A DNA stretch of 64,000 nucleotides from Tridacna crocea (Eukaryota > Mollusca > Bivalvia > Cardiida > Cardiidae): contig OX031071.1 in the NCBI GenBank assembly GCA_943736015.1, positions 12,434,119 to 12,498,118 on the forward strand, written 5' to 3'. Each line of letters starts with the position of its first letter. Position 1 is the first letter of the stretch. Below the pieces are notes generated by a model. It did not search any database. It was given only the letters and a program-made list of their open reading frames with translations, and was not told where the DNA came from. Positions 3,351-62,700 of the stretch are shown one piece after another. A program made the position numbers and the translations under genes.

Positions 3351-3435
3351 ATCACAATGAGAAGTATATGGTGTATTCTTTGGTCGGGGTTGCTGCTCCT
3401 TGCTGGCTGGCTGCCCCATGATGCTTTCTGTCAAA
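3351..3435 (+). CDS. Exon 1: start codon and signal peptide
   Basis: A polypyrimidine tract and acceptor end at 3350, six untranslated bases follow, then ATG at 3357 with A at -3. The reading is MRSIWCILWSGLLLLAGWLP and then HDAFCQ: a short basic start, a hydrophobic core and a polar end with cleavage likely near residue 25. The donor GTGAGT begins at 3436, leaving one base of codon 27. The acceptor directly before the ATG means at least one non-coding 5'UTR exon lies upstream. An earlier in-frame start is not needed, since the signal peptide fits this ATG. Confidence 0.88.
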
Positions 3436-9400: not shown

Positions 9401-12400
9401 CAACAGGCCTCAAACATTTCTATTCATAATTGATGTAATATTTGCTTCCTCACTATGTTTACATATTGCAATTTCGAAGCGATAAGTTAATTGCAGTGAT
9501 TTTAACTCTTGACCACATAATTATAGACTAAATTGAAAGCAATTGCAGGCAACATATTCGTTGTATAGTAGCTAAAATGATGATTTCTGTCTGAAATACG
9601 GTAGAAAACATTGAGGGAAAAAGGAAAACTCCTGTTTTCAATGACCTACTCCTTTAGGATTGTTAACACTTAGGAGAGTGTGGTAAAGGGTTAAGTCTTT
9701 ACTAAATGACAAAATTTTAGACTCGACCAAAGTTAAAGAGTTTGAAATTGACAAAATAAATGAGACTCAGAAATTGAAAATTGCTGTGAAAAAATTAGAA
9801 AACATTGTGGGAAGAGAAGAAAATGCTGGAAACCAACATTTTCTCCTTTTTTTTTCCCCCCACAATGTTTTCAAAAGCTTTCTTTCTCAGGCTTGTTAAA
9901 AGTCAGCATTGTGTAGTGAAGAATTAACCATTTTTTTGTTTTATGTCTGTAGGGGCTGTGCCTTTCACTGGGGCAGACTTTACCACAGCGTCTGACTTCG
10001 AGGGTAACTATTTGGCCTTAACTTGTAACAACGTACCACCCAGTGTACCACCGCACCAGTTCAAATGGAAGACGGGAGATGTAAGTCGCCTGAAAACTTG
10101 CTTCACTCTCTATTGAATGGCCCAGTTTTTGACTGGAATGAATTGAAAGGATATGCAGACAACAAATTAACTCTTTATCAGATGCCAAAATTTTAGACTG
10201 GTTCAAATTGAAAGCGTTTCAAGATGACAAAATAAATGTGGTTGAAAAAAGGAAAATTGTGGTTGGAAGGGTAGAAAACCAGCATTTTCTCCTTTTCTCA
10301 CAATGTTTTTTGAAAGGCTTCTTTCTCAGAGTCATTTAAAGTCGGGATTGTGTGGTAAAGGGTTAAATGGAACTCCGATGATGATTTCCGTTTTTGATAG
10401 GACAGGAAACGTTACCAGCATTTTCTACTTTTCCACTACAATGTTTTCAAAAGCTTTCTCTTTCAGTGTCTAAATATTTTAACTTCGGATACTTTGGCAG
10501 AGGATTATGTTTGCTTTGCGAAACCAGGATTTTATTTCTAGCTGAAATGGGCCTAGACCAGCAAGCGCATGTCATTGCTCTATGTCTGTCATGCTTTTAT
10601 ATGTGTTCATGTGTTATCTTTTATTTTAACCCTTTCCCAAACAACAAAGTTTGGACCCTTCCAAATAGAAATAGTTGGCAGACGACAATTTTTGATTTGG
10701 AGAAAATGGCAGGAAGTTCTCGAAAAGGGTAGAAAAACACTGTGGGAAAAGGAGAAATTGCTCGTTACGAGCAATTTCTCCTTTTCCCGCAGTGTTTTCA
10801 AAGGACTTTTACTGCATACACATAGAAACCAGGGCTTGTTTGGGAAAGGGTTAAAAGTCATATTTTCTGCAACTACCAATTCACATCTGGCTTAACTTCA
10901 TAGCAGTGGTCTCGGTATTATTCTCTTCAAAGTACTGTGAAAGAATTTGACTGCTGTAAAATTTCTGGTTGCCATGGCAACTAATTGACATTTAGTGGTC
11001 TTATGTGGCTCAGTGGTAAAGCATAGGACTCTTGGCTTGAATGTGGCATAAAACACCTTTCAAACAAACAAACAAATTGAAATTTATCGAAACTCTTTGA
11101 AAATGTGGCTGTAAGCATTTAAGGTCTAGAGCAACCCAATTTGGTTTGAGCTTCATGAAATAAAAATCTATAAAGTCTTTAAATGATAGCCTTTAACTCT
11201 ACCAAATGACAAAATCTCAGACTGGTCCAAATTGAAAGCATTTGCAGACAAAATAAATGTGACTCAAAAATTGATAGTGGACTTCGGAAGGGCAGAAAAC
11301 ATTGTTCGAAAAGGAGCAAATGCTAATCACCTAAAAGCATGAAATGAAAAATGATTGAGCCACACTCTAGCAAAAGGGTGCTTAACTGTTTACCAAACAA
11401 CAAAATTATATACTGGTCCAAATTGAAGGCATTAGCAGATGACAAAATAAATGGACTGAAAAATTGGAATTTGGTTTTGGAAGGATAGAAAACATTGTGG
11501 TTAAAGGAGAAAATGCTTGTTACCAGCATTTTCTCCTCCGACATAGTTTCTTAACCCATTACCACAGAATCCCTACTTTTGACGCCTCTGAGAAAGAAGC
11601 CTTTTGAAAACCCTGTGGAAAAAGGAGAAAATGCTGGAAACCAGCATTTTCTCCTTTTGGTCTGTCTTAGAGGACAGAGCCGACTGACCAGGGCCGATGC
11701 TTTTCACAGATGCATTTAGCCCCGTTCTCACAAAGCATGGCTCAATTTTAGTCACACTTGTTGTTGTTGTTTCATTCAGGCTGGTGACCTGGAAAGGGGA
11801 ACAGAGATTGTCACAGATGATAGACATGTTATTGACCCAAAGGGTACGTACCAAACCTTGACTGCTTTTCCACTTGATCATTTTCCAACACTTAGAGAGA
11901 AGGCCTATAACTCTTTACCAAGCAACAAAACAATAGACATGTCTGAATTGAAAGTATTTGCAAACTGCTAATCACAATGTGACCTAAGAAATTAGAATTA
12001 GAAATTAGAATTTGTTGTGGGGAGGGTACAGGGTTTACCAGCATTTTATCCTTTTCCCATAATGTTCTAAAAGCTTTCTCTGTCAGGGTTGTTAAAAGTC
12101 GGGATTGCGTGTTACGGATTAAAAACATTTGTGTAAAAAGAAAAGACTTTTTACCATCATTCAGATTTTAGTCTCTTTGGTCATAAATGACCCTAGTCCA
12201 GAGGTTTGCAAGTTTTTCATTTACTTTTTCACAGTCAAAACATTCTTAACTCATTACCACACAACAATATTTTAGGCTTGTCCAAATTGAAAGAATTTGC
12301 AGACATCAAAATAAAAGTGACTGAAAATTTGAAATTTGTTTTGTGAAGGGTAGAAAACATTGTGGGAAAAGGAGAAAATGCTGGTTACCAGCATTTTCTC

Positions 12401-15400
12401 CTTTTCCCACAATGTTTTCTAAAGACTTCTTTCTGAGGGGCGTCAAAAGTAGGGATTGTGTGGTAATGGGTTAAAAGAAATTTTCTTTTCCCAACCATAA
12501 ATCCTAGGGCAACCCAATTTGGCTGGTTCTGTTTGTGGGTCATTGCTAAGTTTGATCAAAATTAAGCATTTCAGCCAACTCCTTTCTTGGATTGATGATA
12601 GTCATTTGCAACATAATTCATTCTTTTCTCTGGGCTGACCATTATATGGACACTAGTTATATGGGAAAGCAGCCAGCGGCTTGGAGAGAATATTGTGTTG
12701 ATTTATTGTAAAAGAAACTCCAGGAAAGCATGAGTAGGTGTGCTGGTTATAAAAAGTCTTTAAGAAAGTCAAGTATCTAAAATTACATGTTGTGTTCCAT
12801 ATACAAGTAAATTATGAATTCGATTTTATGTCCTAGTGAATCATGATTGGCAGTAGATTTTGCAGCGGGTCTTTCCAATATGGCCACCACTCTGCATAAG
12901 CACTGACTAAAACCTTGGATCAAAGTATATGTACCATACTTTACATGACGGCCGGGAAGTTTTGGGATATTGGCTGTTAACCCTTTACCACACAATCCCT
13001 ACTTTTGACACCCCTGAGAAAGAAGCCTTTTGAAAACACTGTGGGAAAAGGAGAAAATGCTGGTAACCAGCATTTTCTCCTTTTCCCACAGTGTTTTCTA
13101 CCCTTCCCAGAACAAATATCAATTTTTCAGTCACATTTATATTGTCGTCTGCAAATGCTTTCAATTTGGACCAGTCTAAAATTTTCTCGTGTGGTAAAGA
13201 GTTAAATAAGAGCACCTTGTCTGTATGTTGCATTGCGCCCTGGCGCCTCAGTTAGGTGAAATATGGTAACAAAAATTTAACTATCTAATTATGCCCCCCT
13301 TCGTATTGCTTTGCACATGTTGGTTGGTCCATACATACGTCGGTATACCTTACCTTGTCTGGATAATAACTAGACGCAGAAATGACCTAGATTTGTCAAA
13401 TTTGGTTCAGACATTTGTATTGGATTGTAGATGATCCCAAATAATTTTGAGGTCAATCGGTCAAATGTAAAGGTCACAGTATGCTTTGTAAAGAGTTACA
13501 AGTCATACCATGTCGTGCTGATACACCTGCTTGGTTGTTTAGGGTATTGTACAAGAAAACTCCACCATTTTTGTTTTCAGGTACTCTTCATTTTCTTTGG
13601 CTGAATGGTTCTGATGCGAAGAGCTATGTATGTGGGTATTACAACACTATCATCAAAGTGGATATGTGGAATACACAGACCACCGCTGTCACTGTCCAGG
13701 ATGGATGTAAGTTTCACTTTCTTACCTTACCTGATTTAGAGGAAAATGTGAAGACATTGTCACAACCCTCTTGCTGTCATGCACAATAATACTAGTTTTA
13801 TGGTCAGGTGGCAGGGGACTTGGAAGCTTGTTCAGGGCTGTGGTGAATCACGTCGCCCTGAAGGGTCTCTCATAATCCCTGTTAACCCTTTACCACACAG
13901 TGATGATTTTTGATGCCCCAAGGAAAGAAGCCATATAAAAAATCGGGGGGAAAAGGAGAAAATATTGTAACCAGCATTTTCTCCTTTTCCCACAATATTT
14001 TCTACTCTATCAAATAACAATTTCAGCATTTCATCCAAATTGAAATTGTCATCTGTAACTGCTTTCTTTCCCTGAAAAATTCAAAAGACTTAACTGTTTT
14101 GACATGTTGTCTGCAGGCAGTTTTTAGTTTACAAGGAAGAAATCTGAAAATGCCAAATGATTTTTGCAGGTCATACTTGATTAGTAATTATGATATTCTC
14201 TTTTTTTCCAACAGGTATTTGTACATATTTTTATCGTAAATGCTGCTCAGTCAGTTACTTATTCAAAGAATCTACGGTTCAAAAATATAAAAAGTTCTTA
14301 TTATTTATAAAATCATGAATAGTTTTGTCTGTTTTAAGCAGCTAATGATCATGATTATGTCGATTTACTCAATTCAAGACAGCGCGACATCCCAAATCAA
14401 GTGTGCCAGGTGCCAGTGTCCAAAAAACTGTGATTTTATTGTTTCGACTGCAGAAGTTTTCCCTTTTTTCAAAGATAAGCCAATGAGCAAGAGACGTTCA
14501 GTTGCATTCATGAATCTGTATTTTAGTTTTGAAATTAATTTTTATGCATCCCTGGGAAGCGCACTGCTGATAAACGTGCATTCAGCTCAATATTTATGTG
14601 TATAAGGACGCGGAAATCTGCCCCTGTAAAACCCTGTGCCTAATTCTGAGTAAGAATTTTCATTGAAAAAGTTTCCACACCAGAGCGTTGATTCATTGAA
14701 CAAGGTTTCATTGCAGGGCATTGATGCATTGAAAAAGAACCCTCCATTTGATAATAGGCACATGTGGTGGGCTCATGTTGTTGATTCAAACAATTTCTTA
14801 ATGCATTATTTGTTTGTTTCCTGCTCCTGTTATATGTTTATTCATAGCTTTGTTTTAAGTGATTTCTAGCATATTTGATGCATTTTGTGATAAATTAACC
14901 CTCAGAAAGTGGGAAAGAAGAAAATGAAAGTCTACTTCTGTCTCCATCAGATTCAGGTTAATTGATCAAGTAGACTTTAGCCTGTTCTCACCAACCATTC
15001 TAAATTTATTTATTTCAGAATTCTACATTTTAAATTCAATGTCTTAGCCAGTCAGATGTCCATATTTAGGACTCTGGAATCAGCACAACACAATTGAGTG
15101 TGTAGAAAGGCGGTCTATTTGCCTATTTTCTTTACAGCATCCAATGACAACAAGTCTCCAACTATTAGATTCAATGAAGATGTTGTTGTAAGAGCTGGGG
15201 AGGACGCTGTTTTGTCATGCATCTTTTCCTACTACAGCAAAAACAGGTAATTTCTGCTATTGATTACAAAAACAGGTAATTTCTGTTACTGATTGCAGGT
15301 ATTTCCTGCTATTGATTACAAAAACAGGTAATATCTGTTACTGATTGCAGGTATTTCCTGCTATTGATTGCAAAAACATAATTTCTGCTTTTAATTGCAA

Positions 15401-18400
15401 AAAAAAACAAAACAAAAAAACATGAGGTAATTTTTGCTATTGATTGCAAAAACAGGTAATTTCTGCTATTGATTACAAAAACAGGTAATTTCTGCTATTG
15501 ATTACAAAAACAGGTAATTTCTGTTACTGATTGCAGGTATTTCCTGCTATTGATTGCAAAAACATAATTTCTGCTTTTAATTGCAAAAAAAACCACAAAA
15601 AAACATGAGGTAATTTTTGCTATTGATTGCAAAAACAGGTAATTTCTGCTATTGATTGCAAAAACATAATTTCTGCTTTCAATTGCAAAAAACCACAGGT
15701 ATTTTCTGCTATTGATTGTAAAATCATGTAATTTCTGCTTTTGATTAAAAAAAAAAACATGTGTAATTTCTGCTATTAATTGCAAAAAGCATGTAATTTC
15801 TGCAGTTGACTGCAAAAACGTTATTTCTGCTGTTGATTTCACCTAAAGTTATTTGCTACTGTGATGAAAGTTCTAGAGAGCCTTTGTCATGTTGTGGTTC
15901 TCTCTGTTAATCTTAACCCTTCATCAAAATACAAAATTTTAGAATTCTCTAAATTTGAAGGATCTACATAAGACAAACCAGATGTGCCCGAAATCATAGT
16001 TCTTATTACTTTGAGAAAGAAGAAAACATTGTTGGAAAAGGAGAAAATGCTGATTATCAGCATTTTCTCCATTTCCCACAATGTTTTCAAAAGCCTCCTT
16101 CCTAAACCACCAATAGCTTGAACCTTATTGAAAAGTGAGGAAATTGACAAAGTAAGCTAAGATTAGCTATTAGAAGTTGAGCATACAGTATTTCTTTGTT
16201 TACCAATATGATGTGACATGTTAGCCGTTGATGTGTAACCACTGGATAATTACATTATGGGGGACAGAAGAATAATAGCTGTTTCAATAAGTCAGCGGGT
16301 AAAGACTCTGGTTTTTAACGTAGTGGACCCGTAATAGAAACAGCTATTTCCACTATGATATTATCTTACAAAATTTGCTAAGATTAAAAATGAGTATTAC
16401 AGCATTTCTTTCACGGAGCCACTTTTTCCTTTTTGTCCTCCCTAGAATTATCATTTATAAACCTAAAATCAATATATTCTCATAACAAAAGGATATGATA
16501 ATTACCTCCCTTTTCTGAAAACTAACAAAAGTATCAACAAATAATTTCAAGATAGACATAAAAGGAATTTCGGGTCGGTTAAAAATGTACAAAAGTGTTA
16601 CGTTGTATAAATCTGTATTTATCAACTATCAAGAAAATTTATGCCATACTGAACTAGAAGTATTATGGGTCCACTACCTTAAGGTTGTTTGTTCAAATCT
16701 AAGTTGAGGCAGAATATTTATGCCCCCCTTTCGAAGAAATGGGGGTATATTGCTTTGCACTTGTCGGTCGGTCGGTCGGTCCGTAGACCAAGTTTGTCCG
16801 GAGCATAACTCAAAAACTATTTCAGGTATCATCTTGAAACTTCATAGGTGGATAGATCTCATTAAGGAGAAGTGCAGTGCACAAGAACCATAACTCTGCC
16901 CATCATATTTTTGGAGTTATTGCCCTTTGTTGATTTTCATACTTAATTTTTGACCGGAGCATAACTCAAGAACTATTTCAGGTATCATCTTGAAACTACA
17001 TAGGTGCATAGATCTCATTAAGGAGAAGTGCAGTGCAAAAGAACAACAACTCTGCCCATCATTTTTTGGAGTTATTGCCATTTGTTGATTTTCATACTTA
17101 ATTTTTGTCCGGAGCATAACTCAAAAACAATTTCAGGTATCATCTTGAAACTACATAGGTGGATAGATCTCATTAAGGAGAAGTGCAGTGTACAAGAACC
17201 ATAACTCTGCCCATAATATTTTTGGAATTATTGCCGTTTGTTGATTTTCATACTTAATTTTTGTCCAGAGCATAACTCAAAAAGTATTTTAGGTATCACC
17301 TTGAAACTTCATAGGTGGATAGATCTCATTAAGGAGAAGTGCAGTGCACAAGTACCATAACTCTGCCCATCATATTTTTGGAGTTATTGCCCTTTGTTGA
17401 TTTTCATATTTAATTTTTGTCCGGAGCATAACTCTAAAAGTATTTCAGGTATCACCTTGAAACCTTAAATGTGAAAAGATCTTATTAAGGAGAAGTGCAG
17501 TGCACAAGTACCATAACTCTGCCTATCATATTTTTGGAGTTATTGCTCTTTGTTGATGTTCAGACTTAATTTTGTCTGGAGCATAACTCAAAAAGTATTT
17601 CAGGTATCATCTTGAAACTACATAGGTGGATAGATCTCATTAAGGAGAAGTGCAGTGCACAAGAACAACAACTCTGCCCATCATATTCATGGAGTTATTG
17701 CCCTTTGTTGATTTTCATACTTAATTTTTGTCCGGAGCATAACTCTAAAAGTATTTCAGGTATTATCTTAATACCTCATAGGTGGATAGATCTTACTAAG
17801 GAGAAGTGCAGTGCACAAGTACCATAACTCTGCCCATCATATTTTTGGAGTTATTGCCCTTTGTTGATTTTCATAGTTAATTTTTGTCTAGAGCATAACT
17901 CAAAAAGTATTTCAGGTATCACCTTGAAACCTCATAGGTGGATTAAGCTTATTAAGGAGAAGTGCAGTGTACAAGAACCATAACTCTGCCCATTATATTT
18001 TTGGAGCTTTTGCCCTTTGTTGATTTACATACTTAATTTTTGTCCAGAGCATAACTCAAAAGATTTTTCAGGTATCATCTTGAAACTTTATATGTGGATA
18101 GATCTTATTCAGGAGAAGTGCATTGCACAAGAACCATAACTCTGCCCATTATATTTTTGCAATTACTGCCCTTTGTTGATTTTCGTACTTATTTTTTTTC
18201 CGGAGCATAACTCAAAAAAGTATGTGAGGTAAAATCATGAAACTTTAAAAGTTGATAGTTCACATAAATGGGAAGTACAGTGCCCAAGAATTGTTAATTT
18301 ATCATTAATAATTTTTGAGTAATTACCCTTTCTTCGTTTTTACACTTTGAACGTAAGAGTTTTTAATCACATTGGATGCCATTAGGGGGGCATACATGTT

Positions 18401-21400
18401 TTACAAACATCTCTTGTTTTTATTCATTTACCACATGATCCTATTTCCAAATGGGCTCTTTAAACCATTATCAAACAATCCCTGGTTTTTATGACCCTGA
18501 GATAGAAGCCTTTTGATAACATTGTTGAAAAAGGAGAACCAGCATTTTCTCATTTTCCACAATGTTTTCTACCCTGCTGGAAACAAATTTCAATTTTTGT
18601 GATACTTTTATTTTGTCGTCTGCAAGTGCTCTCAGTTTGGGCCTGTCTGAAATTTTGTATTTTGTTCTTGGTTTTGCAGCCGAGCACTGGTAGCTCAGTT
18701 GGTAATGTTTGGGACTTAAGAACAAGGGGTGGTATGTTTGATCCCTGGCTTGGCCAATTTCTTTCCAAGGATTGGTGATAGTCATTGGGACAGGATTTAT
18801 TGCTCTCCCAATACTGATCATTGTTTTGACAATGGCTATTTGGGTATTTTAAAAGAGACTCCAAGAAAGCATGGATAGATGTACTGGCCACCTTGATATA
18901 GCTGAAATAATGTTGAAAACTGCATTAAACACAAAGCAATGGATCAATCTTTGTTTTACAGGAACAAGTTGCGAGTCTCATGGACTTTTGGTGGAAAAGT
19001 AGTGCAAGACAGTACTAAGTTCCAGCACATCATTGAAAATGTTCAGTTGCCTACAAAGACAAAGAGTGATGAAGGACGGTACCTCTGTGAAGCAATGGTT
19101 GACGGCTATGAAGTAAAAGCTCATGTGAATTTAATGATAATTGGTAAGTACAGGGCCTAGTTTCACCAAGGCAGTTACGAACAAAATTTGCGTAAGTTTT
19201 ACATGTTTAGTTTTCGTGTATCTGGTGGCAGATTAATGCCACTATACTTTAGTTACACAGGGTTTTCCCTTGTCTTTGAAAATTAGGGGTCATTGTGACC
19301 TCATTCCTTGTTAGTTGAGGGTCATTTCTTCAACTTATGGGGTCAAAATAAATGGATCTCTTAGTCATCAAGCAGGATTTAAAAGCATCACCTTTAAACT
19401 CTAAAAAAGAAAAGTCTGCATGTCATTTCTGAAGGAAAGGTCGATTTCACTTTTTGGAAAACGAAACATTCTTGTCAGAATTGCTGCTTGACGTGGCTTG
19501 ATCTGCAGTTGTAGGAAGCAGATGAAAGAAGAATGTCAGTTTTCTTCGTAGTTACATGAATTTCCACGAACAGCACAGACTGGTAATGTGTAATTTTATG
19601 TACAGGAAGTAATGTAAAATAAGCTGTGAAATACTGAGAACTATACCAAGACTTCAATTGAGCCCATAATTTACAACACATGTCCAATATACTTTATGAC
19701 AAAATTGCGTAAGCCAGTCTAATTCTATAAATAAGTTCCTGGAAAACCATCTTCTTCTCTGAAACCGATGGTCAGATTTTGTAATAATTTCACAGAGATG
19801 TGCCTTGGATGACTCTTTTCAAAAAGTGTTTGCGAAATTTTGATCCATCGAGAAACATGGCTCTTGCGAATGGGGGCTGACCCTTTTTAAAAATTGCTCG
19901 AGAAACATCAAGAAACATGGCTCTGATGGCTGTGGGCTATTTACAGTATACAGACATGAGGAAATTCTTAAAAATTCTTCTTCCTCAGAAATGGCTGATC
20001 AGATTTTGAAAAAATGGGCTATGGTTCTCTCAGAAATTCAGGTGAGTGATCCAGGGCCATTTTGGCCCTCTTGTTTTTGTAACTACCTTGGTGAAATGGG
20101 GCACAGAACATTTATGGGTGCATTGAACACTTCAACCTGTTACCAGACAATCCCGTCTTTTACCAAGCCAAGAAACAAAGGCTTTATGAGAACATGGTGG
20201 AACAAGGATAATATGCTGGTTACCATGGAAATAGACTTTTGGAAATAAACAGTTCTTGCAGATTGTAAATGTGACCCACAAATTGAAACTTGTTTTCTGA
20301 AACGTAGGAAAGGTCATGGAAAAGAAGAAAACCCAGGTCACCAGCACTTTCTCCCTTTTCATTCTGTTGGTCTTAACATGCGTTGAATAGATATAAATGT
20401 TCTTCTATTTGATTTTTGCAGGACCCCCTCAATTTGAAGAAGGAAAGTCCCTAAAAGCGATATGGGTCCCGAAGGGTCAAGACGCTGTATTCAACTGTGA
20501 TGCTTATTCCCATAATTCCCATGTGTATGCACCAACATGGCTGAAAAACGGGGTACCTATAGTAGGTTAGTATATATAGAGAGTGTTTACTTTTCTTTTA
20601 TTAGCTCACCTGAGCAGGAAGTGGTTGACTCTTTACCACACAATCCGGACTTTTAACGACCCTGAAAAGAAAGCTTTTGAAAAGATAGTGGAAATAGGAG
20701 AAATGCTGCAACCTGCATTTTCTCCTTTTCCCACAATGTTTTCTACCCTGCCTAAATCGAATTTCTATTTTTGATTCACATTTGGTTTGTCTGCAGATGC
20801 TTTCAATTTGGACTAGTCTTAAATTTTGTAGTTTGGTAAAGAGTTAAGGTGAGCTTTTTTGATTGTGCTATGTCTATCTCCTATCATTCTTTATGTGTAG
20901 TTCCTTGTCAACTTTTACCTTATGTATACTTCAGAGGCCACATTTTCAGTCCAATACTCATGAAACTGTAGAAGAATGTTTAACTTACTATGATCTTAGA
21001 TGAATTAAAAAATAGGTCATGTCGGGTCAAAAATAAGGTCGCTAGGTTCACTCTTAGAAAAAGCATGTGAAGACTCTGGTGACCACATTTTGAGTTCAAT
21101 ACTCATGAACATTGGTCAGAGTATTTGTCTTGAAAATGATTCATTTGAATTCAAAGACTAGATCACTAGGTCATATCTGAGAAAAACCTTGTGAACACTG
21201 TAGAGGTCACATTGTCATAGCAATACTCTTGAAAGTTGATGGGAATGTTTCCTTTAAATTATTTTACTTATGATTGAATCAAAACTAGATGACCAGTTCA
21301 TATTTAAAGAAGAAAAAAACTTGTGAACATTCCAGAGACCACACTTTGGTGTAATACTCCTGAAACTTGGGGAAAATGACTGTCTGGATAATATTTTGGA

Positions 21401-24400
21401 GCAGTGTGGAAGTGGGCCATGTGGATTTAACCCTTTACCTCACAATCTGGAGTTTTAACAACTCTGTGAAAGGATGAATAAAAACATACTGTGAAAAGGA
21501 GAAAATGCTGATAACGAGCATTTTCTCCTTTTCCCACAGTGTTTTTTGCTCTTTCAGAAAAAGATAACTATCATTTGAACTACATTTAAATTAATGCCTG
21601 CAAATGCTTTAAATTTGGACTAGTCTAAAGTTTTGCTGTGTGCTAAAGGGTTAAAAACTTGGTCTAGAGGTCAAATTAAAAAAAAAACACCCTTGGGTAT
21701 GCTCTTGAGGCCATATTTTCAGTCCAGTGCTCTCGAAACTCTTTACTGAACAACACAATTGTAGACTGGTCCCAATTGAAGGCATTTGCAAACAACAAAA
21801 TTAACATAACACTGAAATTTAAGTTTGTTGTGGGAGGGAAGAAAAGATTGTGGGAAAAGTGGAAAAAATGCTGGTTACCAGCATTTTCCCCTTTTCCCAC
21901 AATGTTTTTAAAAGACTTCTTTTTCAGGGGTGTGAAAACTAGGGATTGTTTGGGTAAGGGTCAAGTTGGACATGTCTGAAACTGAAGAATTAAAGATAAC
22001 TATTGTTAAATTATAGACTGGTGCAAATTGAAAGCATTTGCAGATGACAAAGTAAATGTGACTGAAAAATTGAAATTTGGTTTGGGAAGGGTAGAAAGCT
22101 GTATGGTAAAAGGAGAAAATGCTGGTTACCTGTATTTTCTCCTTTTCCCACAATGTTTTTAAAAGGCTTATTTTTCAGGGTCGTTAAAAGTATAATTCTA
22201 TACCAAACAACCAAATTCTAGACTAGTCCAAATTGAAAGCAGATGCAGACGACAAAACAAATGATGTAACTCAAAAATTGAAATTTGCTTTCCAGCGGGG
22301 TATAAAACATTGCGGGAAAAGGAGAAAATGCTGGTGACCAGCATTTTCTCCTTTTCCCACAATGTTTTCAAAAGGTTTCTTGCATAAGGTCGTCAAAAGT
22401 CGGGATTGTGTGGTAAAGGGTTAACCATGTATTCAAGTCAATGTTGTGAATAAATATTCTGTTCTCTTCTGTTCTGTTACAGGTTGTTTACCCTCGCAGT
22501 TTGAATGTGGTAACAAAGCACCTAATGGTACATCAATTTGTCTACCAATGAGTCGAAGGTGCAACTCGTTCCCTGACTGTGATGATGGCAGTGATGAAGC
22601 TGCATGCCCTGGCAAACGTAAGACATTTGTACAAAAAAGTTGTCAGATTGGCTACAAATTTTATCTTCCCTTCCCCCACACACATCTCTGCAGGGATTAT
22701 TTTGATATCCCCGCAAAACGAATGTTTTCGTCGGTATACTGGAATCAGCCTGTGTGTCTGTCCGTGTATCCATCTGTGTGTCTGTGTGTCCGTCTGTGTA
22801 CAAAATACTAGCAATTACCTGTTTCTGTCAAGGTGCTGGCGGGAGTATTAAGTGACATTCAATGATAGCTCTAGCTCTTTCAGTATTTATTGGCTGTGTA
22901 AAACTCTAACATTGTGGACTAGGGTATCTTGTATTTCCTAGACAAAGAGTTATTTCATGGGGTGGGGGTGGGAGATGTATTCATCACATTTAGTGATAAC
23001 ACGTATTCATCACATTTAGTGATAACACGTATTCATCACATTTAGTGATAACTCTGCTTTCTGTTTTTCCTAATCCAGTGTCACAATTTTTCTGTATTTT
23101 CAGTGTCCTGTTTGGAGGGAACTGTGGAATGTAATGGAAGGTGTATTCCAAGCGGTCAAACATGTACCGAAGTAAAATGTGAATACCCCGATTTTATGTG
23201 CCGCAACCAACAGTCTTGTCTTAAAATAGATGATGTATGTAATGGGAAAGATGATTGTGGGGACAACTCGGATGAATCTGCATGTGGTATGTTTTTATGC
23301 CTTTCTCACCCTTTTTCCAGAAGTTGGATGCAAGATGCATTGTATGCCATGATGTGTGTGATTATTTATTTTTCTTCTCAATGTCCCGCCGTCTGCCTAT
23401 CTGTTTGTCTGGTTTTGTTTCTGTGGTCAGACTCTCAGAAGCTGTTTATCCTGGGATAAACCAGTATTTTCTCCTGTTTCCACTATGTTTTAATTTATTA
23501 CCACACAATCCCTACTTTTGATGACCCCGAGAAAAGAAGCCTTCAGAAAACATGTTTGGAAAAGGAGAAAATGCTGGTAACCAGCATCTTCTCCCTTTCC
23601 CACGATGTTTTCTACCCTTTACAAAAACAAATTTCAAATTTTAATTCACTCTTGTTTTGTCGTCTGCAAATGCTCTCAATTTGAACAAACCTAAAATTTT
23701 GTTGTTTGGAAATGAGTTAAAAACCCTCCTTCCTCAGAGTCCTTGAAACATAGGATACCTTGGTAAAGGGTTAAATTCAGTTAACTCATTATCAAACGAC
23801 AAAATTTTAGTTTTGTCCAAATTGAAAGCATTTGCAGACGACAAAATAAAAGTGACTGAAAAATTGAAATTTGTTTTGTAAAAGGGTAGAAAACACTGGG
23901 AAAAGGAGAAAATGCTGGTTACCAGCATTTTCTCCTTTTCCTACAGTGTTTTCATAAGACTTCTTTCTCAGGGGCATCAAAAGTAGGGATTGTGTGGTAA
24001 TGAGTTGAATGAGAGCCAATCAGAATTTCTAATGGAGGATAACTTTGTCATATTTTCAGCGGGCAGGGATGACTTTGTAGTAACCGGTTACAGATTCAAC
24101 TCCCAGAGGACCAAGATGACCATTCCAGAGGTAGAACTAAACCAGAACCTGTGTATACAGTGCGCCGTAAGCAACAAATACGGAACTAGCTTTGGAGACG
24201 GCTGCTTGACTGTTATAGGTAGCTTTCAACTCTTTACCTGACAACAAAATGTTTGATGTCAAAATATCGAAATAGAAAGCGTTTGTAGACGGCAAAATAT
24301 ATCTAGTTCAAGTGATGTATTTTGTCTCTAACAGGATAGGAAGCATTGTGAAAAAAGAAGGAAAATGCTGGTTACCAATATTTTTCTCTCTTTTTTTTTT

Positions 24401-27400
24401 TCCTACTAAGTTTTGAAAAGACCACGTTTTCTAGCCTTTCAGGGATAAATATCATCATTTGGGCCATGTTTGATATATCTTCATATGCTTCGAAATTGGT
24501 CCAGTCTAAAATTTGTGGGTGGTTAATCGATTACCACACAATCCCTACTTTTGACACCCCTGAGAAAGAAGCCTTTAACATTGTGGGAAAAGGAGGAAAA
24601 GCTGGTAACCAGCATTTTCTCCTTTTTCCACAATGTTTTCTACCCTTGAGAAAATAAATTTCAAATTTTTTGTCACTTTTATTTTGTCATCTGCAAATGC
24701 TTTCAATTTTGACAAACCGAAAATTTTGTTGTATGGTAACAAGTTAACCCTTTCCCAGATGACAAATTTGTGGACTAGAACAAATTGGAAACATTTGCAG
24801 ACGACAATTCAACTCTTGCTGAAAAGATGATTTCTGTCTATGATAGGGTAGAAAACATGATGGGAAAAGGAGAAAATGCTGGTAACCAGCATTTTCTGCT
24901 TTTCCCACAATGTTTTCTAAAGGCTACCATTGCAGACCCGTAAAATCCAGGGATTGTTTGGGAAAGGGTTAAGAGTACTGGAAATAGTGAGATTGTTGTG
25001 TGAAAATGTTTTCAATTTAGAGCTAATCCCTTACCACATGATAAAAGCTTCAAACTGTTCCAAATTCAAAGCATTGCAGGCAACGTAAATAATTAACCCT
25101 TTGCCACACAATGACGACTTTTAACTCTTTACCACATGATAAAAATGTAGACTTGTCCAGACTGAAAGCATTTGCAGACGATAATTCAAATGTGTCTAAA
25201 ATAATGGTGTTTGTCTTTGATTGATAAGAAAACATTAAGGGAAAAGGAGAAAATGCTGGTTACCAGCATTTTCTCCTTTTCCTTTAATGTTTTCAAAAGG
25301 CTTCTTCCTCAGGGGTCGTTAAAAGTAGGGATTGTGTGGTAAAGGGTTAATGACCATGAGAAAGAGGCCATTTGAAAACTTTATAGGAAAAAGAGAAAAT
25401 GCTGTTAACTAGCATGTTCTCCTTTTCCCACAAAGTTTTGTACTCAACCACAGAAAAAATGCATCATTTGAGCCACTAGAAAGTTATCGTATGTAAAGGC
25501 TTTCGACTTAGATATGTATAAAATTGTGCCTTGTGGTAAAGGGTTAAATGTAGATTAGATGATTAGATTAATGAAAAAAAAAAAAAAAAATTAATATAGT
25601 GTGATACAGAGTTAATGAGGTTACCATCCATTTCAGACAATATCAACATTCTAACAGAACCAAACAAGACATACACTGTGGAACCTGGGATGTTCCTCAA
25701 TGTTGCTATTGATGCAACCACAGATGCCATCTATGCTGATCAACTGAACTACGAGTGGCACTGGTTTAGGGAAGTTGAAGATCCAAACAACCCTGGAGAA
25801 AAAATAGTCCGTGAGTCCTTTTTTGCTGTAGGTCAAACAAGGTGGAGAGGGAGGGGCTGGGTGTAGGTTAAACCTTTACCACACAATGATGACTGACGAC
25901 CTTTTGAAGGAAGCCTTTTGAAAAAATTTTGGCAAAAGAAGAAAGTGCTGACTCCTTTTCCCACAATGCTTTCTACCCTATTACACCATTGTATTTGAAA
26001 ATTTGTAGGAAAACTCTCATTGTAATAGGGTCTTGACACTTTTCTGACAACATATCAAACAGAGTTTGGTAAGTTGCCTTTTAGTTGCAGTACTGCGAGT
26101 GGTTGTCCTGATGTAAATGGGAGTACTACATGGCTCAAGGAAGGGTGAAGGTTTAACTCACTACCACACAATCCCTACTTTTGATGACCCTGAGAAAGAA
26201 GCCTTTAGAAAACATAAGTGGGAAAAGGAGAAAATGCTGGTTAATTTTTTTCCCCACGATATTTTCTACCCTTCACAAAACAAATTTCAAATTTTCAGTC
26301 ACTTTTATATTGTTGTTCTGTAAATACTATTGATTTGGACAAGCAAAAAATTTTGTTGGTTGGTAAAGACCTAAGATTTCGAAATGTGTTGGAACCCGGT
26401 GTGATCATCTCATAAGTTGCTGGTTTTTGGTAAGGATCAATTAGTTAATCAATCAGTCAACCTGCATATTGGAGTGCAACAATGATATTTTTGGTCGGGC
26501 AGAGTGGAACTTTGTCCTGATTTCTGAGAAACAGATTGGCCCCCCCCCCCCACAACATATGCCCTTTTCTGAAAGATTCGTGAACCTTACTGGTATATTC
26601 TTTCTTTCAAAGAGACAAACAAAGCAGTGATTTAACCTTTCCCAAAGGACAAACTTTTGGATTAGACCAAATTGAAAGCATTTGCAGATGACAATTCAAC
26701 TCTTGCTGAAAAGATGATTTCTATCTATGATAGGGTAGAAAACATTGTGGGAAAAGGAGAAAATGCTGGTTACCAGCATTTTCTTCTTTTCCCACAATGT
26801 TTTCAAAAGGCTACTATTCTAGATCGGTAAAAACCAGGGATTGTTTGGGAAAGGGTTAATAGACAGAGAAAGTGTCAGAAATCATTTTTGGATGAGGGAA
26901 AGAGCACTTTAACTCAAATGTGATGGCAAAATCAGTCTGAAAATACATTTGATCACTGCCAGAAATTGACCACATGATTTTCCATAAATTTGTGAATCAT
27001 TTTGGAAAAACACTGAGTCATTCCAAATGTAGTCAAAATGACGTCTTTCAAGGGGTTTTCCTAAAGGTCACAGCCTCAGAACTTATCACAGATGCATATT
27101 TCTGTATCATACTTTGAAATTATGGGCACAAAGAGTACAAACAACTGATGAATTATTTAGGGAAAAATGATTGTTTTCGATAACATGAGATTCTTTTCAT
27201 TTTAAATTTGTATTTGACCCATTTCTTCTGATTAGAGAACTTCTCGAGAATGATTTTATGTCTGTAAAAGGTTTCATAGCAGCCAAAAAAAGCAGTGAGC
27301 AAAAAATATTAATAGCAAACAGAGATTCACAAGGATATGAGTATTCACAAAGTGATGAGGGTCAATCAATACTTGAAACAATGTTGATATTGGCTTTAAG

Positions 27401-30400
27401 GTAGTAGACCTGTTAATACCTCTAGTGCTGCATGGCATAAAATTTTCTTGATTGTTGATAAATACGGATTTATACAGATATAATACTTTAGCATATTGTA
27501 ACCCACCAGAAATCCCTTTAATGCATAATTTGAAACTATTTGTTGATACTTTCGTTATTAGTTTCCAGAAAAGGGAGGAAATTATTATTGCCCTTTGTAA
27601 TTAGAATATAGTGGTTTTAGATTTATTAATGAAAATTTTAAGAGGGAAAAAAGGGGAAAAAAAGTGGCTCGGTTAACCCATTACCACACAATCCGTACTT
27701 TTGACGCCCCTGAGAAAGAAGCCTTTTGAAAACACTGTAGGAAAAGGAGAAAATGCTGGTAACCAGAATTTTCTCCTTTTCCCACAGTGTTTTCTACCCT
27801 TCCCAAAATAAAATTTCAATTTTTCAGTCACCTTTATATTGTCTGCAAATATGCTTTCAATTTGGACCAGTCTAAATTTTTCTCGTGTGGTAATGGGTTA
27901 ATGCATAATTTGAAACTATTTGTTGATACTTTCGTTAGTTTCCAGAAAAGGGAGGAAATTATTATTGCCCTTTGTAATTAGAATATAGTGGTTTTAGATT
28001 TATTAATGAAAATTTTAAGAGGGAAAAAAGGGGAAAAAAAGTGGCTCGGTTAACCCATTACCACACAATCCATACTTTTGACGCCCCTGAGAAAGAAGCC
28101 TTTTGAAAACACTGTAGGAAAAGGAGAAAATGCTGGTAACCAGAATTTTCTCCTTTTCCCACAGTGTTTTCTACCCTTCTCTGAATAAATTTCAATTTTT
28201 CAGTCGCCTTTATTTTGTCGTCTGCATATGCTTTCAATTTGAACCAGTCTAAAATTTTGTTGTGTGGTATAGAGTTAAAGTAATGCAATAATACTCTTTT
28301 TTTTAATGATAGCAAATTTTGTAGGATAATATTATAATGGAAATAGCTGTTTTCTTTTATGGGTCCACTACCTTGACCCATTACCAGACGACAAAATTTT
28401 AGCTCTGTCCAAATCGAAAGCATTTGCAGACGACAATTTCAGTCTGGCTCAAATGGTGCAATTGCTTATTGATTAGGTATAAAACATTGTCGGAAAAGGA
28501 GAAAATGCTGGTAACCAGCATTTTCTCCTTTTCCCACAATGTTTTCAAAAAGCTTCTTTTCCAGGGGCGTCAAAAGTAGGGATTGAGTGGTAATGGGTTA
28601 AAAACAAATTTGAAATTTTCAGAGCCAGTCAAGCTGCCTCCACTTGGATACGAGAATGTCTTTAAGGTGTCTATGAAAGGTAAAAATTTGACAATTGTTG
28701 TACCTGATGTGGATGAAGACGATGAGAACTCCTACAAAAGATACATGGATGTTGCTGGTGGTGAACAGAAGTACTCTGTAATTGTGCAACATCCAAATGA
28801 CAAAGTTGTAAGAAATTTCACCATTACTGGAGTCACGGTGGAGCCACCTGGTGAGTATGAACAAATTCACTCTTTACCTAACGATGACATTTTATACTCA
28901 TCCAAACTGAAAGCAATTGCAGACAACAAAATAAATGTACCTCAAAAACTGAAATTCGTTTCTAGCAGGGTAGAAAACATTGAGGAAAAAGGAGAAAATG
29001 CTGGTTATCAGCATTTTCTTCTTTTCCCACAATATTTTCAGAAGGCTCTTATCTCGAAGGTGTAAAAACCAGGGATTGTTTGGTAAAGAGTTTAGAAAGG
29101 GGGATAGCTAACTGCATCCTTGCTAATGAGGTTTGAAATTATTATTGGTGTCTTTAGGTCTGTTGGGTTACATCTAAATGCCTTCCTGTAAGACATACTC
29201 CCAACTTTTAACCATCCTGAGGAAGAAGCCTTTTGAAAACATTGTTAGAAAAGGAGAAAATGCTGGTATGCAGCATTTTCTCCTTTTCCCACTACCCTTT
29301 CAAGTACAAATTTTGTCATTTGGACTTTGTTTAATTTGTACTTCTGCAAGTGCTTTCATTTTGGACTAAAATTTTGTCATTTGTTAGATAGTTGAAATGA
29401 ATGATGACAGAATTTTTTCCTTTGAATGGATAGAAATGATTACAAGAAATCAGTTTTTTTAAATCCTTTTACTTTGAGGTTGTTAACCCTTTACCAAAAA
29501 ACAAAATCTTAGACTGGTCCAAACTGAAAGCACTTGCAGACGAAAAAATATATGTAACTAAAAAATTGAAATTTGTTTCCAGTAGAGTAGAAAACACTGT
29601 GGGTAAAGGAGAAAATGCTGGTAACCAGCATTTTCTTCTTTTCCCACAATGTTTTCAAAAGGCTTCTATCTCTGGGTTGTAAAGAACGCGGATTGTTTGG
29701 GAAGGGGTAAATACAAGGAAAGGATTGAGAAAAAGATTTAACCCTTTACTCCATAGATACTCATTTCTACACATTGCTTGTAGGAGCCTTTGGAAAATAT
29801 TGTGGCAAAAGGTGAAATTGCTCGTGACGAGCAATTTCACCTTTTGTCACAATGTTTTCTATGCTATCAAAAGGTGTCATATACCCATAAAAAACGGCTT
29901 CATCCTTGCTGCTATTTAGGGTCAGTTAGAGATACCATAGAAATGCCAAATGGGGTAAAGGGTTAAGTATGGTATGGAGCCCAAAGACGGAGCATACTTG
30001 TATGAGCTTATGCAGAAGACCAGATTCACCAGCCACTCTTGAGAACAATCTTTGTCTTATTCTCGGGATTTTCTAAATTTAAAAGCAACAGAACTTGATT
30101 GGCTAAACCAAATGGTTAATATATCACCTGAAGACCAGGTTCACCAGCCATTCTTGAGAACAATCTTTGTCTTATTCTCAGGATTTTCTAAATTTAAAAG
30201 CAACAGAACTTGATTGGCTAAACCAAATGGTTAAGATATCACCTGAAGACCAGTCAAGAATGAACAATCTTTGTCTTATTCTCAGGATTTTCTAAATTTA
30301 AAAGCAACAGAACTTGATTGGCTTAACCAAATGGTTAAGATATCACCTGAAGACCAGATTTACCATCCATTCTTGAGAACAGTCTTTGTCTTATTCTCAG

Positions 30401-33400
30401 GATTTTCTAAATTTAAAAGCAACAGAACTTGATTGGCTAAACCAAATGGTTAAGATATCACCTGAAGACCAGATTCACCATCCGTTCTTGAGAACAATCT
30501 TAGTTTTATTCTCAGGATTTTCTAAATTTAAAAGCAACAGAACTTGATTGGCTAAACCAAATTGTTAAGATATCACCAGTCAGAAGCCAAGAAACGTCTG
30601 ATATTACATCATTCTATTTTGTTCTGTTTTCAGTGGTTATACCAGCTACAGCCCAAGCCAGTTCAAATCTCTGGCTTATTGCAGTCATTCTTGGTGCAAT
30701 CGTTCTGATTGCCCTTGTAATCTTTATTGTGTGTGTTGTCTGTAAGAGGGATCCAAGAGGGGCTTATTATGGTAAGTATAACCCTTTACTCCATAGATAC
30801 TCATTTCTTCATATTGCTTGTAGGAGCCTTTGGAAATCATTGTGGCAAAAGGTGAAATTGCTCGTGACGAGCAATTTCACCTTTTGTCACAATGTTTTCT
30901 ATGCTATCAAAAGGTGTCATTTACTCATCCTTGCTGTTATTTAGGGTCAATTAGAGATGCCAAAGCAATGCCTTGTGGGGTACAGGGATAAATAAGGGGC
31001 TGATTTTGGTGGATAAAAATAAGAGCTAACAAATGGTTTGACAGTTATTTGCCAACCAGTCTAAAATGCGTTGAGACTGTTATTCTAGAATTTGAAAGTA
31101 GCACAGTTTCAAAGAAACCATGTTGAAAAGTGTAACCTTGAATTTTTGGAAAATTTCTAGACTTGTCTTACTTGAGGCTTTTTCAGAAGACAAATTGAGA
31201 ATAGCTCATAGAATGTAACTGTAAAAATACTGTAGGAAAATGGGGGGGGGGGGGGGGGAACAGTAACCATGAGTACTTGAAACATGGGATCTTTTGACAG
31301 AGTTGTAAAGTATAAAAGTAAGTCAGAAAGTAACATCTTAGCAGTATATTTTAGGTCCACTGGCTAAAGACCAACAAGACCATATCTGTTGTTCATCTGT
31401 GCATGTATACAAACATAAGCCATTTCACACATCTCCTTCTCTGAAATACTGCCCATCTAATTTGGATGAAACTGCACAGACATGATCCTGCCATTTCTCT
31501 CTTGAGATTTTCAGTCAAAACGCTTGTTGCCATTGTGTCAAAGCTGAAAAACATGGAAAATCTCTAAAATTTTCTACTTTGGAATCGTAGTAAACCTAAG
31601 GCTACCAAATTTGGCATTAGCTTCATCTTATAGAGCCCTATGAAGGTTCTACAAATTGTAACCTTGGGATCAAAACTTGCCATGCCTGGGGTCACAAGTC
31701 TTATACATTGAAAACATGGGAAACAAAAAATGTCTTTGTTCCTAACCATAAAGTTTTAAGACTAGAAAATTTGATGGTTACCAGCATTCTCTCTTTTTCC
31801 CTCATTGTTTTTAAAAGGCTTGTCTTTAAATTCAGGATTGTGTGGTAAAGAGTTAAATGGCTTATATAATGAAAACTTACATAATTGTCTGTTCCCATCC
31901 ATTAAGTCTATGTGTCCTGGTATCATGATATAGCTGGTTTCATGTTGAAAACTGTTTCAAGTTTCATGCAAAGAAACACAGAGCTTGGCACATATTTAAT
32001 GTATTTTTCCAGTGGACAAGAAAGAACATGAGGCTGGAAATGATCCAGAACAAGAATTAAAGGACAGCGGATTTCATGATGTAGGACGAGTGTAAGTATG
32101 CTGCTAGAGTCTCCCTTATATGTGTGTAGCCTGTGTGTAAACCTGTACCCTTACTAAGCCACTACCAATTTAACCCTTTACCAAATAGATGACTAAATTT
32201 TGACAACTGCAAAAATGAAGGCCTTTGAAAACATTGTGTGAAAAGGAGAAAATGCTGGTAACCAGCATTTTCTCCTTTTCTCACAATATTTTCCACTTTA
32301 TCAAAGATAACTCTCCTCATTAGAGCCACATTGAATCTGTAGGCTGTAAAATCTAATTTGTTGCCTCTTTCCTCTTTGAATTTGGGAGACTAAAATTGTG
32401 TTGCCTGGTGAACAGTCGAGTGATTAGATTTAGATTGTAGATTTCTCCATTTTGAAAACTGTTTGTGGACATGTTGGATGTGGCTCTAATGGTGAGAAGA
32501 GGTGGAAGTACTGGTTAACAGCATGTTTTCAAAGGCATGGTTCATAATGGTTTTTAAAAGACAGAATATTTGATAAAGGGTTTTTAATGCTCTTGAGGGA
32601 AGAGTGGAGCAATATTAGATGGCAGGGAAAAAAAAAATCCCTCTAAAAGTAGACCTAGGCACCCTCACACAGCAGCTTTTAAGTAGCAAGGTCTCGATGT
32701 TGTGGTTCCTTTCTATGTTTTTATTATGGTTTAACCTATTTCCCTGTTAACGCTTTACCAAACAATCCCTGGTTTTCATGACTCCAAGGAGAAGTCTTTC
32801 AAAAACATCATTGAAGAAGAAGATGATGCTGGTAACCAGCACATAATGCTGGTAACCAGCATTTTCTCCTTTTCCCACAATGTTTTCTACCCTTCCAAAA
32901 TTAAACATAAATTTTAGAGTTGCATCAATTTTGTTGTCTGCAAAAGCTTTCATTTTGGACAAGCTAAAAGTTAAATGTGTCTTATATAATTACTTTCTTT
33001 CCCGGGAAGGGTAGAAAACATTTTGGGAAAAGGAGGAAATGCTAGTTGTCGGTATTTTCTCTTTTTGCAACCATGTTTCAGCAGAATCTTATCCTCCAGA
33101 GTTGCTTGTGATTGTTTGGTGAGTGGGGTAACCTTTCTTAAACCCTCCTAAAACTAGTTTGGTATGAATGACTCTGAGAGCAAAATTAATGTTATAGTTT
33201 ATTTCTACCAAAGAATAGAATTTTGGACTTGTGTAGATTGAAATCATTTGCAGACAATTTGTGAAATGTAATTTTGTTGATGATTTTTGTCTTTGATAGT
33301 TATGGGAGAGGAGAAAATGCTGTTTATCAGAGTTTTCTTCTTTTCCAAGACTGTTTTCGAAACCCTCCACCTTTTTAGGGTTGTTAAAACTCATGATCAT

Positions 33401-62130: not shown

Positions 62131-62700
62131 TTGATCACAGAAATGATACTGCCATGGTCCTCTTCAGAATTTCTTGAAAAAAATTGATTTCTTAAAAAAT
62201 TCTGGTATTCTGGTATTAAAACTGAAAAATATTGAAAATCTTTGAAAATCTTCTTTTCTGAAACCATAAGGCCGAGGGCTACCAAATTTGGCAAGAAACT
62301 TTATCTAGTGGAACTCTACCAGATTCCTTCAAATGATAGCCCTGGGGTCAAAAGTGGCTCCGCTGCGGGGGTCACAATTTTTATATGGGCTAATATAGGG
62401 AAAACTTAAAAATCCTTTTGGTACCCAGCCAGAAGGCCTAGGGCTACCAAATTTGGCATGTATCTTTATCAGGTGGACATCTACCAAGAGTGCCCAAGTT
62501 AAGCCCTGGGATCAAATTCGGCCCAGCCCCGGGGTTCACAAATTTTAAATGGGCTTATATAGGAAAAAGTTTTAAAAAATCTTCTAGTACCTAGCCATAA
62601 GGGATAGGGCTATCAAATTTGGCATGTAGTTTTATCTACTATATGTGGCGTTGTCTACCAAGGGGGTACAAATTATATCCCTGGGGTCAGATTTAAGTTT
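62130..62700 (+). repeat. Dispersed repeat, units with GGGCTACCAAATTTGGC
   Basis: Three units around GAGGGCTACCAAATTTGG, TAGGGCTACCAAATTTGGCA and TAGGGCTATCAAATTTGGCA, spaced about 155-165 bases. Body of the 5085-6030 family. Confidence 0.68.

Follow-up and report, generated by a model that had tools for sequence, protein, structure and literature searches.

The 64,000-nucleotide stretch of Tridacna crocea DNA analysed here (the window) contains a gene for which a first-pass annotation proposed that LDL-receptor class A (LDLa) modules are inserted inside an immunoglobulin (Ig) domain of an L1-type receptor, raising the question of whether this arrangement is real and, if so, how it arose and what it may do. 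The gene comprises 17 exons on the + strand (3357..44473) that give a spliced model of 813 aa (Table 1). When 22 relatives were compared with the window by tblastn (E ≤ 0.01), 15 clusters of matches were obtained, one on each of 15 of the 17 exons including exons 9-12; exons 1 and 5 were matched by none of the 22 at this threshold, and no further cluster within the window was matched. An exon 6 end at 13703 was rejected, there being no GT at that position, while the GT donor at 13706 yields the 813-aa protein. An open reading frame at 26029-26145 was likewise rejected as an exon of the fifth Ig-like domain, as it is matched by none of the relatives and exons 13 and 14 are matched instead. The gene is probably expressed as a spliced transcript in its own species.

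Table 1. Exons and LDLa modules of the window gene (positions in the window).
Feature	Position	Strand	Content	Phase; length	Evidence
Exon 1	3357..3435	+	Signal peptide, start codon		No tblastn match
Exon 2	4941..5061	+	Ig1, half 1		Spliced model, tblastn
Exon 3	7366..7550	+	Ig1, half 2		Spliced model, tblastn
Exon 4	9953..10080	+	Ig2, part 1		Spliced model, tblastn
Exon 5	11780..11843	+	Small exon, Ig2		Sole candidate in splice-phase scan; no tblastn match
Exon 6	13581..13706	+	Ig2, final part		Spliced model, tblastn
Exon 7	15138..15246	+	Ig3, half 1		Spliced model, tblastn
Exon 8	18962..19143	+	Ig3, half 2		Spliced model, tblastn
Exon 9	20422..20565	+	Ig4, half 1, with C357, W371	1-1	tblastn
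Exon 10	22483..22617	+	LDLa module 1	1-1; 135 nt, divisible by 3	Pfam, tblastn
LDLa module 1	22485..22607	+	C381-C421, 6 Cys, consensus calcium box		
Exon 11	23104..23286	+	Half module and LDLa module 3	1-1; 183 nt, divisible by 3	tblastn
Half module (middle)	23109..23165	+	C427-C445, 4 Cys; complete 6-Cys module in two unionid relatives		
LDLa module 3	23178..23285	+	C450-C485, 6 Cys, consensus calcium box		
Exon 12	24060..24218	+	Ig4, half 2, with C517, C520, C534	1-1	tblastn
Exon 13	25637..25810	+	Fifth Ig-like domain, Cys-free, half 1		tblastn
Exon 14	28623..28850	+	Fifth domain, half 2		tblastn
Exon 15	30634..30771	+	Transmembrane helix		tblastn
Exon 16	32013..32091	+	Conserved cytoplasmic membrane-near segment		Best of 3 candidates in splice-phase scan; tblastn
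Exon 17	44266..44473	+	Tail of ankyrin-binding type NEDGSFIGLY, C-terminal KEATV, stop codon		tblastn

The proposal that exons 9 and 12 encode the two halves of Ig4 held in coordinates, splice phases and residues, with C357, W371 and C520 where they had been placed. Exons 10 and 11 lie between these halves and encode an LDLa module, a half module and another LDLa module, as had also been read, and Pfam recognizes two LDLa stretches there (E 5.7e-17 on the insert alone). When the Ig4 halves are joined without the insert, they reach 24.4 bits against the I-set model, above its cut-off of 23.7, and remain below the cut-offs of Ig_3 (25.4 bits; cut-off 30) and Ig_2 (21.2 bits; cut-off 27). The spacing between the Trp and Cys at the positions of W371 and C520 is 144-171 residues in complete carriers of the insert versus 40-44 in rows without it. 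A location of the LDLa modules between Ig domains was rejected, since the array falls between W371 and C520 of a single Ig. The intron inside Ig4 is of phase 1 and follows the Trp, and those inside Ig1 and Ig3 are of phase 2 and precede it. The calcium boxes that had been claimed are of consensus type in both full modules, which carry the six Cys and acidic box of PF00057, while the middle module, with four Cys, falls short of the six of that family. The presence of LDLa modules inside Ig4 is thus confirmed, and chance is excluded because 17 of 22 aligned relatives have an insert at the identical place.

These relatives were gathered with a word-based homologue search, so that all counts are lower bounds. 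The family was found with residues 485-813 as query, which returned at least 26 proteins among 4319 candidates; the whole protein returned at least five (E ≤ 1e-5; 7999 candidates scored) and residues 1-377 at least four among 6323 candidates, in both cases without the bivalve family among the matches listed. Four of the 26, P0029-P0032, were kept out of the alignment, three being L1 proteins of Sarcophilus and Sminthopsis and P0032 a 727-aa protein with fibronectin type III (FN3) domains. One of the 17 carriers, P0021, is a truncated gene model and was excluded from trees, identity means and counts of complete inserts. Eleven of the 22 aligned relatives have a named organism, all of them molluscs, and their database names are general only (neurofascin-like, NRG-like, neuroglian-like, contactin, hypothetical). 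The named carriers are heteroconch bivalves: the site is filled in clams, the zebra mussel and freshwater mussels, and it is empty in five relatives, Pinctada, Pomacea and three others, with a C'-D connection of only six residues in Pinctada P0024 and five in Pomacea P0026. None of the 22 has LDLa modules outside Ig4, and the suspicion of a lineage-specific architecture is borne out among them. Eight carriers are frames of 796-836 aa on contigs of 2.6-4.5 kb, which suggests that these are spliced transcripts, the contig type being inferred.

All 17 complete carriers retain the insert position and two six-Cys modules, and conservation across the insert matches that of the surrounding Ig4. The middle module has lost two Cys in most carriers and has six in the unionids Potamilus and Sinanodonta, while the insert of P0007 contains two half modules. 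A strict calcium box, defined as C[DN]..., D before C, [DN] and [ST]DE, occurs at least once in 15 of the 17 complete carriers and twice in six of them, and is absent from P0008 (Dreissena) and P0019 (Mya). At the other end of the protein, the Bravo/FIGEY tail family PF13882 is matched by all 23 rows, including residues 714-802 of the window protein (E 2.6e-11). The tail motif reads FIGLY in the window protein, its fourth letter varies among relatives, and the tail of Sinanodonta P0023 reads FIGLH.

The origin of the array was read from a tree built without the insert columns, as a second tree that included them would be circular for this question. In this midpoint-rooted tree, in which Pomacea is a flagged long branch, all carriers lie on one side of a single branch (support 100/98). 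The window protein falls among 15 Imparidentia-like rows, its branching position there being unsettled, and this placement assigns the window gene, a genuine one, to the heteroconch bivalves. Most simply, the array entered once, as phase 1-1 exons, in a heteroconch ancestor and has since been kept, the direction of change being taken as a gain. At the level of sequence, the arrangement looks like an old, kept invention and not an error, because relatives in other clams and in freshwater mussels share it.

Structure models were made for relatives of the window protein and were based on 21 sequences. In that of P0008, the Dreissena row, the insert site lies between the predicted strands C' and D of Ig4 and the LDLa modules would project from the Ig sandwich, in agreement with the first-pass annotation; the middle of the insert is of low confidence (pLDDT about 55-60). 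Ig1-Ig4 are predicted to form an N-terminal horseshoe as in the L1 family, low-confidence stretches having been excluded from the fits to axonin-1 and neurofascin. A helix is modelled at residues 686-710 of P0008, and the transmembrane stretch of the window protein lies in exon 15. Comparison with a viral fold library gave only generic matches to Ig and beta-sandwich folds.

It is quite probable that the product of the window gene is an FN3-less Ig receptor of L1-like build, with a nested LDLa array that was gained once in heteroconchs and kept, giving a membrane-anchored receptor with a knob. Ig1-4 would form the horseshoe of L1/contactin-type receptors, and the array would project from the Ig4 edge, forming a knob held by disulfides and, in the window protein, probably by calcium. 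This knob may serve to bind a partner or ligand. Through its single transmembrane helix and FIGLY tail, the receptor would be tethered to ankyrin and the spectrin-based cytoskeleton, and a role in adhesion is plausible. More tentatively, we propose a heteroconch receptor class in which the germline LDLa array at the C'-D edge of Ig4, on an L1-type horseshoe, could be the main ligand-binding part, disulfide-held and in most members calcium-held, with the Ig domain as scaffold for a foreign binding domain. If so, full modules would have been cut down to halves and a single half module doubled, while the Ig frame persisted.

Other readings were weighed against this anchored knob receptor. Exons 10 and 11 could be an optional cassette, such that inserted and plain Ig4 forms are both made and the switch is the function; their phases and lengths would permit this, and if both are skipped, a reading frame of 706 aa remains open, its uninterrupted Ig4 scoring above the I-set cut-off. 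No LDLa-free isoform was found for any carrier among the at least 26 proteins (4319 candidates), however, though isoforms could be concealed by the 90% clustering and by annotation with one model per gene, and P0021, with the only shortened insert, seems to be a truncated model when compared with P0019; we think a switch of this kind unlikely. The receptor might instead serve immune recognition in blood cells, with microbes or microbial products as ligands of the LDLa knob, rather than adhesion or nerve wiring, but rapid change of an ectodomain is not specific to immunity and the tail matches the ankyrin-binding type of L1 proteins, and such a role is similarly doubtful. That the insert is a functionless, tolerated graft held by its own disulfides alone appears improbable: the array does tolerate change, given the Cys loss in the middle module, the half modules of P0007 and the two carriers lacking a strict calcium box, yet its position, six-Cys modules and level of conservation speak against it. 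Finally, although many other genes carry similar LDLa exons, the idea that exons 10 and 11 come from a separate gene or transcript lying within intron 9, or from misassembly, found no supporting evidence, is refuted for the relatives by the Ig4a-LDLa-Ig4b order in 17 of 22, in named genomes and on short contigs, and is most improbable for the window.

The interest of the preferred reading is that a whole multi-domain array would have been placed partway through an Ig fold by exons of matching phase, and subsequently retained. With the site preserved empty in Pinctada and Pomacea and filled in clams, the zebra mussel and freshwater mussels, the family offers a natural experiment on how a domain nested within an Ig domain is tolerated and put to use, and on how adhesion receptors can acquire new binding surfaces.

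Compared with the L1 family (L1CAM, neurofascin, NrCAM, CHL1 and Drosophila Neuroglian), the description as an L1-type receptor stands only in part. The tail and the predicted Ig1-4 horseshoe are L1-like, but the window protein misses two defining features, as FN3 repeats are absent and there is only a Cys-free fifth domain. L1 proteins are defined by three to five FN3 repeats, and the 23 rows match 14 families at E ≤ 0.01, FN3 (PF00041) not being one of them; likewise, in place of six Ig domains there are four Cys-bearing ones, with a single Cys-free domain where the L1 family has Ig5-Ig6. The tail motif of L1 proteins is FIGQY, and the LDLa array in Ig4 is a feature of the window protein. 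Members of the L1 family also mediate homophilic or heterophilic adhesion and bind ankyrin, properties that the window protein may share. Pinctada P0024, a hypothetical protein (33% identity), and Pomacea P0026, annotated as neurofascin-like (31%), belong to the same FN3-less family, with the same domain order and tail, but have a continuous Ig4 where that of the window protein is interrupted. To our knowledge, Sidekick, contactins/axonin-1, DCC and hemolin have no LDLa insert; contactins are GPI-anchored and hemolin is secreted, whereas the window protein has a transmembrane segment. With the LDL-receptor family the array shares the six-Cys module, the consensus calcium box (modules 1 and 3) and phase 1-1 exons, but here the modules are nested in an Ig domain and the middle one is cut to four Cys; neither EGF nor beta-propeller repeats occur among the 11 Pfam matches (E ≤ 0.1) of the window protein.

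Searches of open-licence PMC papers listed no description of LDLa modules inside an Ig domain, although a full text may mention one. In bovine antibodies, the ultralong CDR H3 is a loop of somatic origin that is placed between F and G in a V domain. The array described here is by comparison encoded in the germline, as a domain inserted at the C'-D connection, and the two are not homologous. These antibodies are described as raising a Cys-rich mini-domain from an Ig fold (PMC5994613), as here, and if the Ig domain does serve as scaffold, the clam receptor would offer a germline-fixed parallel to them.

The 17-exon gene spans 41 kb of genomic sequence, and its spliced product agrees with the residue numbers (C357, W371, and C520) on which the first-pass annotation based its proposal of low-density lipoprotein receptor class A (LDLa) modules lying within the fourth Ig domain. 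Searches by tblastn with related proteins matched 15 of the 17 exons and found no match elsewhere in the 64-kb window; for exons 1 and 5, support comes from reading frame and splice sites alone. As the lengths of exons 10 and 11, which encode the insert, are both divisible by three, omission of the two would keep an open protein of 706 residues.

Positions of gene features and repeats in the window
Feature	Position	Strand	Remarks
Gene, 17 exons	3357-44473	+	813 residues and stop, given exon 6 end at GT donor 13706
Exon 9	20422-20565	+	phase 1 in, phase 1 out
Exon 10	22483-22617	+	phase 1 in, phase 1 out; length multiple of three
Exon 11	23104-23286	+	phase 1 in, phase 1 out; length multiple of three
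Exon 12	24060-24218	+	phase 1 in, phase 1 out; holds C517 and C534
Fifth Ig-like domain	25637-28850		cysteine-free
Exon 17	44266-44473		tail C-terminus KEATV
Tandem array, ~29-base unit	15238-15589; 15608-15838		first unit holds exon 7 splice donor (15246)
Satellite-like array, 156-base unit	16793-18290		9.6 copies, intron 7
Satellite-like arrays, 166-base units	1-964; 51374-52583; 62264-62636		

All six exact CAGGTAATTTC sites of the window fall in the stretch of ~29-base repeats, so that exon 7 is followed by repeated donor-like sites. A palindromic hairpin repeat with the core AAAAGGAGAAAATGCTGGTTACCAGCATTTTCTCCTTTT is present in 63 copies (≤6 substitutions) across the 64 kb, about one per kb and also inside introns of the gene, and resembles a short mobile element of very high abundance.

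Pfam assigns to the window protein Ig domains, two LDLa stretches, and a Bravo_FIGEY tail (714-802, E 2.6e-11), with no match to FN3. The isolated insert is recognized as LDLa (E 5.7e-17). When joined, the two Ig4 halves exceed the I-set cut-off (24.4 bits versus 23.7) but not the Pfam cut-offs for Ig_3 and Ig_2. Modules 1 (C381-C421, box CNSFPDCDDGSDEAAC) and 3 (C450-C485, box CNGKDDCGDNSDESAC) each contain six cysteines and the middle module four. In the models of two relatives, a helix is predicted to precede the last two strands of the fifth Ig-like domain. The KEATV terminus, a possible PDZ-type end, is kept in 15 of the 18 insert-bearing rows.

A homologue search with residues 485-813 recovered 26 proteins at E≤0.001 among 4319 candidates, and 22 of these (P0007-P0028; P0029-P0032 were omitted) were aligned with the window protein. 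Eleven of the 22 are named to species, all molluscs, and their database names are neurofascin-like, NRG-like, neuroglian-like, contactin, and hypothetical. The insert lies between the same two Ig4 halves in 17 of the 22, among them a truncated Mya gene model (P0021, 13 insert cysteines). Among the carriers with a species name, Dreissena polymorpha, Mya arenaria (three models), Ruditapes philippinarum, and Mactra antiquata (two) are Imparidentia, and Potamilus streckersoni and Sinanodonta woodiana are Palaeoheterodonta; all belong to Heteroconchia. The pearl oyster Pinctada imbricata (Pteriomorphia), the snail Pomacea canaliculata, and three further rows are the five without the insert, with five or six residues at this position, and W371 and C520 are 40-44 residues apart without the insert versus 144-171 with a complete one. 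Across all 23 rows C357, W371, N374, and C520 are invariant, and Pfam matches LDLa in 18 and Bravo_FIGEY in 23, with FN3 absent from the 14 families matched. Two further Ig4 cysteines near the F and G strands, C517 and C534, occur in all 18 insert-bearing rows and in Pomacea, are jointly missing from the other four insert-free rows, and likely form a second Ig4 disulfide. Paralogue pairs in Mya (P0009/P0019) and Mactra (P0011/P0014), each on contigs of equal listed size, suggest growth of the gene family by duplication within one chromosome; in both Mactra paralogues isoleucine replaces the second Ig3 cysteine (C313 in the window protein).

In a midpoint-rooted maximum-likelihood tree of 22 rows built with the insert removed, a branch supported at 100/98 separates the 17 carriers, window included, from the remaining rows, a separation equalled by none of 500 label shuffles. 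Since neither the snail nor the pearl oyster has the insert, it was most simply gained once, in the heteroconch stem; the Pomacea branch is flagged as long and its placement is unsure. The middle module is complete, with six cysteines, in unionids and a four-cysteine half module in the other complete carriers. Two consecutive half modules in one relative (P0007, 20 cysteines) raise the possibility that half modules were duplicated as units. Complete inserts hold 16 (14 rows), 18 (two), or 20 (one) cysteines, and so all could pair inside the insert. Within the insert, the 17 carriers share a mean pairwise identity of 44.6%; the two Ig4 halves give 44.3% and 49.6%, the remaining domains (Ig1, Ig2, Ig3, and the fifth) 35.5-39.4%, and the tail 72.8%.

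Eight carriers (P0007, P0012, P0013, P0015-P0018, P0020), 796-836 aa in length, are encoded by contigs of 2649-4539 bases. Given the 41-kb window gene, these contigs, whose source type is not given, are most simply read as spliced transcripts, evidence on the exon 9-10-11-12 joining that bears on the relatives and not on the window's own species.

LDLa modules of other receptors bind basic ligand patches with the assistance of calcium. Of the 17 complete carriers, 15 have at least one strict calcium box, and six of these, including the window protein, have two; no such box occurs in either LDLa module of P0008 (Dreissena) or P0019 (Mya), although their inserts retain 16 cysteines. On the presence and absence of these boxes, the window protein is likely to bind calcium, a capacity that may have been lost in P0008 and P0019 and is no fixed trait of the family. 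The FIGQY motif of L1 proteins links to ankyrin, and the FIGLY tail would connect the receptor likewise. Since the residue after FIG is L, I, M, V, A, E, or Q in relatives and the Sinanodonta tail has H in place of the last Tyr, ankyrin binding would not be assured for every relative. In neurofascin, Ig1 is packed against Ig4 and Ig2 against Ig3, with homodimerization through Ig1-Ig2 (PMC9633819). An LDLa array projecting from the C'-D edge of Ig4 would not need to block this interface and would supply a second binding surface.

The first-pass designation of an L1-type receptor stands for the tail and for the horseshoe, as predicted in the model of a relative, but not for the FN3 repeats and six Ig domains, which the window protein lacks; it is therefore better termed L1-like than a member of the L1 family. 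Searches of open-licence papers listed no description of an Ig domain interrupted by LDLa modules. The component parts are of known kinds; within the scope of these searches, their nesting and its history in bivalves appear to be new.
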